Shown piece after piece: positions 3,545 to 8,907 of a DNA stretch of 64,000 bases. The notes beneath the pieces were generated by a model that saw only the letters and a list, made by a program, of their open reading frames with translations, was not told where the DNA came from and searched no databases. Every line of letters starts with the position of its first letter. Position 1 is the first letter of the stretch. Source of the stretch: Leptospirillum ferrooxidans C2-3 (GTDB taxonomy: Bacteria > Nitrospirota > Leptospirillia > Leptospirillales > Leptospirillaceae); NCBI RefSeq assembly GCF_000284315.1, contig NC_017094.1, positions 2,139,486-2,203,485 on the forward strand, read 5' to 3'. The position numbers and the translations under genes are program-made.

Positions 3545-4372
3545 CTAAGGGAGCAGCTTGATCGCAGCCTGAGGAATCAGATTTGCTTGGGCCAGGACCG
3601 CTGCGCCGGATTGGGAAAGAATTTGCCGCTTGGTAAAAGCTGCTGTTTCCGATGCGAAATTCACGTCCCTGATTCCCGCCCGCGATGCTTGCACATTTGT
3701 TGTCGCGTTGTTCAGGTTCTTGATTGTCCATTCCATCCGATTCTGGATGGCGCCGATCGAACCCTGCACCTGAGTGATTTTTTCAAGGGCCGAATCCAGA
3801 CGGTCAATCGCATTCTTTGCATCGCTCCTATCCAGGATCTTTGTGGAACCGATGCCGAGGGAACTGGCATCGAGCTTGCCCATCTTGACCGAAAGTCGAT
3901 CATCGATCGATGTGTAGATACCGACGTGGAACTTGAATTCCGAATGGCTGCCATCGAGAATCTTCATTCCATTGAAGTCGGTGACCCGTGCGATACGGGA
4001 AATTTCAGAATTCAAATGTTGATATTCCTGATTCAACACCTTCAGATCCTTGTCCGAATAGGTGCCGTTCGCTGCCTGGATGGCCAGCTGACGCATCTTC
4101 AGAAGCAGCGTATTGTCGGTCATCAGGGCACCGGACGCCGTCTGGAGAAGATGGGTACCGTCATTGGCATTCCTGATCGCGGCGTTGTAGGAAAGAACCT
4201 GTCCGCCCATTCTCTGGCTGATGGCATATCCGGCAGGATCATCCGCCGGGGAGTTGACCCGGTATCCGGAAGAGAGCCGGTTGATATGCTTGGCCAGGGC
4301 TTCCTGGGTCCGGTTCAGGTTGTACTGCGCATTCATCGATGCAATGTTGTCATTGATGATCATTCCACTCAT
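3545..4372 (-). CDS. fliC: Flagellin, csrA-linked copy
   Basis: The filament subunit, 275 residues. The N-terminal D0/D1 helices are classic (NRLSSGYRVNSPADDPAGYA near residues 31-50). The C-terminus (ILSQSGAAVLAQANLIPQAA then IKLLP) forms the D0/D1 return helix. The centre is short, so this is a compact flagellin without D2/D3 outer domains. The ATG follows AAGGAGGG. The leader contains a hairpin and repeated CAAGGA motifs and is preceded by a sigma-28 box, with fliW and csrA upstream. A second flagellin lies at 8956-9816. The two share the D0 ends but differ in the middle, so both may enter one filament. Confidence 0.95.
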   Translation of the reverse strand: MSGMIINDNIASMNAQYNLNRTQEALAKHINRLSSGYRVNSPADDPAGYAISQRMGGQVLSYNAAIRNANDGTHLLQTASGALMTDNTLLLKMRQLAIQAANGTYSDKDLKVLNQEYQHLNSEISRIARVTDFNGMKILDGSHSEFKFHVGIYTSIDDRLSVKMGKLDASSLGIGSTKILDRSDAKNAIDRLDSALEKITQVQGSIGAIQNRMEWTIKNLNNATTNVQASRAGIRDVNFASETAAFTKRQILSQSGAAVLAQANLIPQAAIKLLP

Positions 4373-4380
4373 GACTGCCC

Positions 4381-4421
4381 TCCTTGGTTGTATTCACGGT
4401 CCAATCCTTGGACCGTCCTTG
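4381..4421 (-). promoter_or_regulatory. Predicted CsrA-binding region in the flagellin leader
   Basis: The minus-strand leader holds three CAAGGA motifs, at 4416-4421, 4405-4410 and 4381-4386. The middle one is presented by a perfect hairpin: a 9-bp stem ACGGUCCAA/UUGGACCGU (4396-4416) with loop GGA. The last is the Shine-Dalgarno itself (AAGGAGGG). The loop GGA and the Shine-Dalgarno GGA are about 22 nt apart. CsrA is known to bind GGA in hairpin loops and, in Bacillus hag, to bridge an upstream hairpin and the ribosome-binding site. The match here is by structure and context; binding is inferred. Confidence 0.65.
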
Positions 4422-4532
4422 TTTTTTCAATCTGTCAGGCGCCTCATCTCCTTTCCCGGTCCTTGACGATGATGTCTATCCCGGAGTGCTTCCGCCCCGA
4501 CGATTACTTGGGCGACTACCCCCTCCAGACTC

Positions 4533-4559
4533 TCTTCGGAGGATAGGAAAAATACTTTA
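4533..4559 (-). promoter_or_regulatory. Sigma-28 promoter of the csrA-linked flagellin gene
   Basis: On the minus strand TAAAGTAT, 11 bases, then TCCGAAGA resembles the FliA consensus TAAAGTTT-N11-GCCGATAA. The -35 is strong and the -10 matches 5 of 8. The -35 overlaps the last codons of fliW. The predicted leader of about 150 nt contains the CsrA-type hairpin. Confidence 0.6.
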
Positions 4560-5015
4560 GGAATCTCCGGATGCACCGGCGCTTTTCTCCTGTTCCCCCT
4601 TGAACAGGGGGAAACGGAGCCATCCGTCATCGTCAAAAAGAACAAACTGCTTCCCAGTGCGGTCCCCGGTCAGAACCACCAGAGGGCCCTGCAGATTGGC
4701 GGTCATTTCTTCCATATGCTCTCCCGGTATTGTCACAACCACCATAAGGCTCAGATCGCTTCCCAAAAACGCCTTGTCGGGCATAACGGCCAATACGCGG
4801 GAAGCGTAATCCGGAACCAGCTCGGAGGGGTCCATCACAACAAAGGCCAGGGAAGGTTCTTCCACGCTCTGGAGCCAGTAAAAGAGGCTGTTCTCGCCTG
4901 TTTCCAGAAGAAGATATCTCGTCAGTCCGGGAAATCCGAGAACGCCCTCGGGAAACGTAAGGACCCTTTCCGGATCGAGCGGGATGGTCCCGAATCGGGT
5001 TGTTTCGATTGTCAT
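4557..5015 (-). CDS. fliW: Flagellar assembly factor FliW
   Basis: FliW binds flagellin and, when freed by flagellin secretion, binds CsrA allosterically and lifts its repression of flagellin translation. The 152-residue sequence shows the family core: [19 protein letters not shown] (about residues 20-38), [16 protein letters not shown] (48-63) and a C-terminal segment with [10 protein letters not shown]. It overlaps the csrA stop by 4 bases (ATGA), so the two are translationally coupled. The last about 15 residues are a low-complexity tail. csrA, fliW and flagellin in direct succession strongly suggest the three-node homeostasis circuit described in Bacillus. Confidence 0.95.
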
Positions 5016-5293
5016 TTTCCTCCCTCCCCCGGGCTTTTTGGGGGATTATCTCCCGACCCTTTCTGTTTTTTTGCGTAGCGGCTGTTCAGAAGCTTCATCT
5101 GATCGGGCGTTGTTGTCGCCGCCTTTCGGTTCTCCTCCATGATCCGGTCAAAGACCTCATCCCTGTGGACGGACATCTCCGTCGGGGCTTCCACCCCAAG
5201 TCTCACGCTTCCACCCTTGACCTCGATCACAACGATGCGGATGCCATCGCCAATCGTGATCCCCTCACCGACCTTGCGCGTCAGGATTAAAAT
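5012..5293 (-). CDS. csrA: Carbon storage/translation regulator CsrA, ATT start
   Basis: CsrA is a dimeric RNA-binding repressor of translation. The frame reads I(M)[16 protein letters not shown], the canonical N-terminus, followed by [20 protein letters not shown], which contains the RNA-contacting VHR. An in-frame TGA lies two codons before, and the only codon giving the canonical MLILTR start is ATT (5293-5291), with GGAGG 6 bases upstream. A GTG at 5230 would delete the first beta-strand and cannot encode a functional fold. At 93 residues it has about a 30-residue Lys/Pro/Gly-rich C-terminal extension beyond the usual 60-75. It overlaps fliW by 4 bases and follows flgL by 24. Confidence 0.93.
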
Positions 5294-8879: not shown

Positions 8880-8907
8880 TAATCGGTCAGGTTTAAGAAA
8901 AACTTTA
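8880..8907 (-). promoter_or_regulatory. Sigma-28 promoter of flgM
   Basis: On the minus strand TAAAGTTT (8907-8900) matches the FliA -35 exactly. After 12 bases comes ACCGATTA, matching the -10 GCCGATAA at 6 of 8. It lies in the 113-bp gap between the flagellin stop and flgM. flgM-flgN-flgK-flgL can therefore be transcribed as a late class unit. Confidence 0.72.

Follow-up and report, generated by a model that had tools for sequence, protein, structure and literature searches.

The position of csrA and fliW immediately ahead of a flagellin gene in Leptospirillum ferrooxidans C2-3 raises the question of whether flagellin synthesis is held in balance there by the CsrA-FliW pair and, if so, what keeps these two proteins in proportion to each other. 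In the window, i.e. the whole 64-kb (64,000-nucleotide) stretch of DNA that was analysed, csrA (5293-5012; 93 aa; Pfam CsrA, 1.3e-21; NCBIfam csrA above cut-off) and fliW (5015-4557; 152 aa; Pfam FliW, 3.8e-31) lie on the minus strand directly upstream of flaA (4372-3545, minus strand), which specifies a flagellin of 275 aa with Flagellin_N and Flagellin_C Pfam matches and is the presumed target of control. The Pfam matches of all three genes clearly exceed the respective cut-offs. This arrangement had been described in an earlier, sequence-only reading and was confirmed here. The minus-strand order flgL-csrA-fliW-flaA-fliD is kept within the family, for which the name Leptospirillaceae was inferred, and the genome, a single contig of 2,559,538 bases, holds one csrA and one fliW. 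The ATG of fliW overlaps the csrA stop codon (ATGA), and fliW is preceded by its own Shine-Dalgarno (SD) sequence, GGGAGGGAGG, with a pairing energy of -11.7 kcal/mol. A sigma-28-like promoter, TAAAG...CCGAAGAG, was assigned to flaA by pattern match at 4559-4532 on the minus strand, where it overlaps the fliW stop; its TAAAG and CCGA elements occur in all full-length family leaders examined, and flaA is probably transcribed from this late promoter of its own and possibly also from further upstream. The window also contains a second sigma-28-like promoter at 8907 on the minus strand, ahead of flgM (8842-8486).

Transcription from the predicted start would give flaA a 5′ leader of about 153 nt (4525-4373, minus strand), the final 49 nt of which contain CAAGGA three times, at 4381-4386, 4405-4410 and 4416-4421, in agreement with the three copies in the last 50 nt listed by the sequence-only reading; a fourth copy, at 4460-4465, was missing from that list. 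The copy at 4405-4410 contributes the 3-nt GGA loop of a hairpin with a perfect 9-bp stem at 4416-4396 on the minus strand (ACGGTCCAA-GGA-TTGGACCGT), exactly as had been claimed, and this hairpin is the putative upstream CsrA site, comparable to BS1. The copy at 4381-4386 overlaps the flaA SD sequence, again as described previously, and represents the putative downstream, BS2-like site, with 24 nt separating the loop GGA from the SD GGA. As GGA is common in any SD sequence, the downstream site counts for little when taken alone. The hairpin is the only one in the window, on either strand, with a GGA loop and a stem of at least 9 bp, and such a structure arose in just 0.04% of 5000 dinucleotide shuffles of a 184-nt flaA leader, while none of these 5000 shuffles carried four CAAGGA motifs. 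Folding of the leader placed the GGA hairpin in both the minimum free energy and the centroid structures and left the SD GGA mostly unpaired, although the leader as a whole folded no better than its shuffled counterparts (z = -1.2).

Conservation of these elements was followed in relatives from five genera, from which 20 flaA loci were counted, or 21 if a contig suspected of being a contaminant is included. This contig (G003:C95, locus L002, 2.2 kb) carries a flaA 99.6% identical to that of the window in a genome that also holds an 84% copy; we considered it likely contamination and excluded it from the evidence for genus g2. A GGA-loop hairpin was present in 20/20 analysed leaders, with predicted free energies of -6.0 to -13.9 kcal/mol, and in every locus its GGA fell between -31 and -35 and that of the SD at -10 or -11, the distance between the two being 21-25 nt in all 20 leaders across the five genera. 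CCAAGGAGGG, in the SD region, was unchanged in 13 of 13 aligned flaA leaders and the CCA-n-GGAT columns of the alignment were likewise invariant, with invariant columns in g1-type leaders making up 91% of the last 45 nt as against 56% further upstream. The stem is far less constant: it has 9 bp in g1 and 5-10 bp in the genera g2, g4 and g5, while in g3 it is shortened to 4 bp, namely GGCC/GGCC in a register shifted by one position. Only the outermost of the nine pairs has changed on both sides, and covariation was consequently not used in support of the stem; of the conservation anticipated by the sequence-only reading, the invariant loop GGA was borne out and stem covariation was almost nil. 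In one g3 subgroup the loop GGA is paired in the predicted fold, its probability of being unpaired amounting to 0.15-0.47. For some g3 leaders, folding of 110 nt paired the loop GGA with CATCCTGCC; as CATCCTGCC overlaps the predicted promoter -10 element, this result was set aside and the leaders were refolded from the predicted start site. The CAAGGA copy at the base of the hairpin (4416-4421) occurs in genome G000 and as the variant AAGGACAAGG in genus g3, is altered in G002 and is missing in G005, G006 and the own copy of G003; owing to its absence from three genera it was dropped as a core site and is accessory at most. In g3 leaders such as L039 and L018 another hairpin, towards the 5′ end, has AGGA close to its loop and is a possible extra CsrA site; its stem differs by subgroup (AACGGU/ACCGUU or GGCGA/UCGCC). 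In genome G005 the csrA-fliW-flaA locus is present twice, on separate contigs (L006 and L051), each time with an AUU csrA.

Taken with the functions established for these protein families, and with the presence of I51 and N55, the residues at the FliW-contact positions, in the CsrA of the window, the arrangement argues strongly that CsrA represses flaA and that FliW relieves this repression. A CsrA dimer would bind the hairpin-loop GGA and the SD GGA of the flaA mRNA, bridging the 24 nt between them, and would thereby block access of the ribosome; free FliW would bind the C-terminal helix of CsrA and lift the block, and cytoplasmic flagellin would take up FliW, such that flagellin is made only during export. 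The retention of the loop GGA and of the spacing while the details of the stem drift is the pattern of a site for a CsrA dimer, an argument from pattern and not proof. We consider it very likely that a homeostatic circuit of the Bacillus/Campylobacter type, with control of the CsrA:FliW ratio through the start codon or gene fusion described below as part of it, operates in this Nitrospirota bacterium. The proposal of the sequence-only reading that the same loop is at work here is accordingly well founded as regards leader anatomy and the conservation of two GGA sites in five genera, whereas for binding and repression we infer it.

The leader might be interpreted in two other ways. The hairpin could serve as a stability or SD-spacing element, for instance a 5′ shield or a standby site, that operates independently of CsrA and has acquired its GGA loop by chance, an interpretation with which the variable stem sequence and the minimal classical covariation would agree. 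Against this, the loop GGA is invariant even though the stem shrinks from 9 to 4 bp and changes register, which implies that selection follows the loop rather than the stem, and the distance to the SD GGA is held within the narrow range given above; we regard this explanation as highly improbable. Alternatively, CsrA may be chiefly a global regulator for which flaA is one target among many, with the hairpin acting mostly on mRNA stability or as a CsrA sponge. The flaA leader of Campylobacter jejuni does also titrate CsrA (PMC4894983), and CAAGGA is found 87 times on the two strands of the window as compared to 57 expected from shuffles, an excess that is unexplained. Membership of csrA in the flagellar operon throughout the family, where it lies between flgL and flaA, speaks against such a primarily global role, as does the position of the downstream GGA inside the SD sequence, which favours direct control of translation, and we judge this alternative to be quite unlikely.

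The second flagellin gene, flaB (9816-8956, minus strand; 286 aa), is located about 25 nt after flgJ and lacks an upstream GGA site, as the SD GGA is the only one within 49 nt of its start and the next, at -50, falls inside flgJ. No conserved upstream GGA site was found in the flaB leaders of relatives, and no sigma-28-like promoter was detected near flaB, the scan of the window having returned 4559 and 8907 only. The suggestion that just one of the two flagellins is subject to control therefore fits the sequence, albeit that flaB may be controlled as well, as its single SD site could bind CsrA weakly in the manner of C. jejuni flaB.

Maintenance of the circuit would depend on the relative amounts of CsrA and FliW, and in this respect the csrA gene displays an unusual feature, as it starts at AUU (5293-5291, minus strand), a codon that is rare and weak in this role. 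The sequence-only reading gave 5293 as one limit of its region but made no mention of the AUU. The codon is preceded at normal distance by the SD sequence TGGAGGTGA (5305-5297, minus strand), which includes a GGA and whose anti-SD pairing (-15.2 kcal/mol) is the strongest among five starts checked, and the CsrA consensus M-L-I-L-T-R-K begins precisely at the ATT. The frame ahead of it reads TGA AAG ATT, so that the in-frame TGA makes an upstream start impossible, while initiation at the nearest canonical codon downstream, codon 22, would cost the protein its first beta strand, RNA-binding residues included, and could not yield a whole CsrA; a gene caller limited to ATG, GTG and TTG nonetheless shortens the protein to 72 aa. 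Among 20 family loci, a number that includes the suspected contaminant contig, csrA starts with ATT in 17, with ATA in one and with ATG in two (G010 and G017). Outside the family no AUU start was encountered in about 90 csrA genes (10 Nitrospirota loci, 60 from other lineages and 20 further Nitrospirota loci, one of them overlapping), all of which start with ATG or GTG.

It could be objected that the AUU codon is not the true start, or that it is a start devoid of regulatory meaning that arose by drift, since the start was assigned from sequence and family members with AUG and AUA exist. The reading frame, the cost of a start at codon 22 and the suitable SD spacing oppose the former view, and retention of AUU across five genera as against none in the outgroup genes speaks against the latter; the objection appears unlikely to hold. 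The AUG in G010 and G017 does indicate that a weak csrA start is dispensable in the background of these two members. If AUU is accepted as a meaningful start, a weak codon set against a strong SD sequence, in combination with a fliW that is coupled through ATGA and has an SD sequence of its own, would keep CsrA at or below the level of FliW. That AUU prevents CsrA from exceeding FliW is suggested with less confidence than the repression of flaA itself, and by analogy, as is control of this start by IF3; the strong SD may also partly cancel the AUU penalty. The gene for IF3 itself, infC, is the textbook case of a start controlled by this factor. The infC loci of the family (L140-L160) were located by tblastn and their start codons assigned from SD spacing; the codon is AUU in two genera, g3 and g4, and apparently AUC in the other three, g1, g2 and g5. 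A search of the open-access literature yielded nothing relevant on an AUU-start csrA or on CsrA in Leptospirillum, and the AUU start is apparently unreported, with an earlier description being possible.

A different arrangement was observed in the sister genus g3, where csrA and fliW form a single reading frame in 12 genomes (L060-L071, e.g. L060:3001-3699). The csrA stop codon is absent from these genes and the frame reads on into fliW across roughly 24-27 linker codons, specifying proteins of 229-233 aa where complete, in which both Pfam domains were recognized in 3/3 cases tested. The linker is variable in sequence and changes in length by whole codons, while I51 and N55 are invariant in the aligned proteins. 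No separate csrA was found in the fusion genomes, several of which are incomplete assemblies, and the lack of a csrA stop means that CsrA is made only joined to FliW, unless processed. Ahead of the FliW part, all g3 fusions do contain an internal start codon (ATG or GTG) preceded by a purine-rich SD-like sequence, so that free FliW may also be produced, although glycine codons of the linker could mimic an SD sequence. In other Nitrospirota where one match spanned both genes in frame a stop codon always intervened, the genes are unfused in the window itself, and no fusion was present among 60 loci from other lineages. A search of the PDB found no chain matching both the CsrA and FliW domains, and the open-access publications searched contained nothing on a natural CsrA-FliW fusion, which apparently has not been reported, an earlier description again being possible. 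An AlphaFold2 model of the g3 fusion built from 12 sequences had a mean pLDDT of 47 and was discarded as uninterpretable.

In g3 the problem of the ratio would be met by CsrA existing only as a CsrA-FliW fusion, to which the internal start could add free FliW. We propose tentatively, as a scenario that is possible and falls a little short of probable, that in the Leptospirillaceae the conserved AUU sets the CsrA:FliW ratio at translation initiation and that one genus then fused CsrA to FliW, thereby giving rise to a one-protein flagellin sensor and repressor. If true, each g3 CsrA carries its own inhibitor, and binding of flagellin to the FliW part would free the CsrA part of the same chain; such intramolecular control is among the weaker of our suggestions. 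In Bacillus subtilis the loop requires FliW and CsrA dimers to be nearly equal in number, a balance achieved through genetic architecture and coupling (PMC6529632), and the present family seems to have answered the same ratio problem naturally in two ways, by the AUU start and by the fusion in g3. As every CsrA dimer formed by the fusion would have two FliW domains, compared to the one FliW per dimer inferred for B. subtilis, the fusion offers a direct test of the amount of inhibitor that the circuit tolerates. On a practical level, csrA is at risk of misannotation, and a caller accepting only ATG, GTG and TTG may overlook the CsrA portion of the g3 fusion.

The circuit as such is already known, also outside Firmicutes; the novelty that the sequence-only reading saw in the latter does not hold, since C. 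jejuni flaA is under the same control (PMC4894983), and FliW had previously been listed for Nitrospira (PMC4682653). What appears to be new is the start of csrA at AUU and, in g3, its fusion to fliW. In B. subtilis CsrA binds two sites in the hag leader, one of which overlaps the SD sequence, and FliW binds the CsrA C-terminus (PMC6529632; PMC7652899). The two leader sites, one of them on the SD sequence, and overlapping, translationally coupled fliW and csrA genes are shared with the locus described here; however, the gene order is fliW-csrA in B. subtilis and csrA-fliW, within flgL-csrA-fliW-flaA, in L. ferrooxidans, where csrA starts with AUU and two flagellins are encoded. B. subtilis operates near one FliW per CsrA dimer (PMC6529632), implying that an excess of FliW is not required everywhere. 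The likeness to C. jejuni extends to a GGA stem-loop separated, by 21 nt in that species, from a second GGA at the ribosome-binding site (PMC4894983), and to the presence of two flagellins, the major one being the main target. The 21-25 nt of the family are also close to the cited spacing optimum of 18 nt (PMC4894983). C. jejuni CsrA requires V51 and N55 for FliW binding (PMC7829508), the corresponding residues of the window protein being I51 and N55. In C. jejuni, in contrast, the SD GGA resides in a second hairpin of a 45-nt leader, whereas here it is mostly unpaired in a predicted leader of about 150 nt, and the present locus is further set apart by its conserved sigma-28-like promoter, which overlaps the fliW stop. 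The closest parallel for the proposed ratio control is sigR-rsrA of Streptomyces, in which IF3 represses initiation at a GTC codon and the antagonist is thereby held in excess (PMC5472188). Both systems have a regulator with a non-canonical start, an ATGA overlap with the antagonist and an antagonist with its own ribosome-binding site; they differ in that sigR-rsrA is a sigma/anti-sigma pair with a GTC codon, and in that the IF3 effect and the ratio were shown there and we infer them here. The FliW-CsrA complex of Geobacillus thermodenitrificans (PDB 5DMB), finally, comprises the same two domains as separate chains, whereas in g3 they are joined in one.
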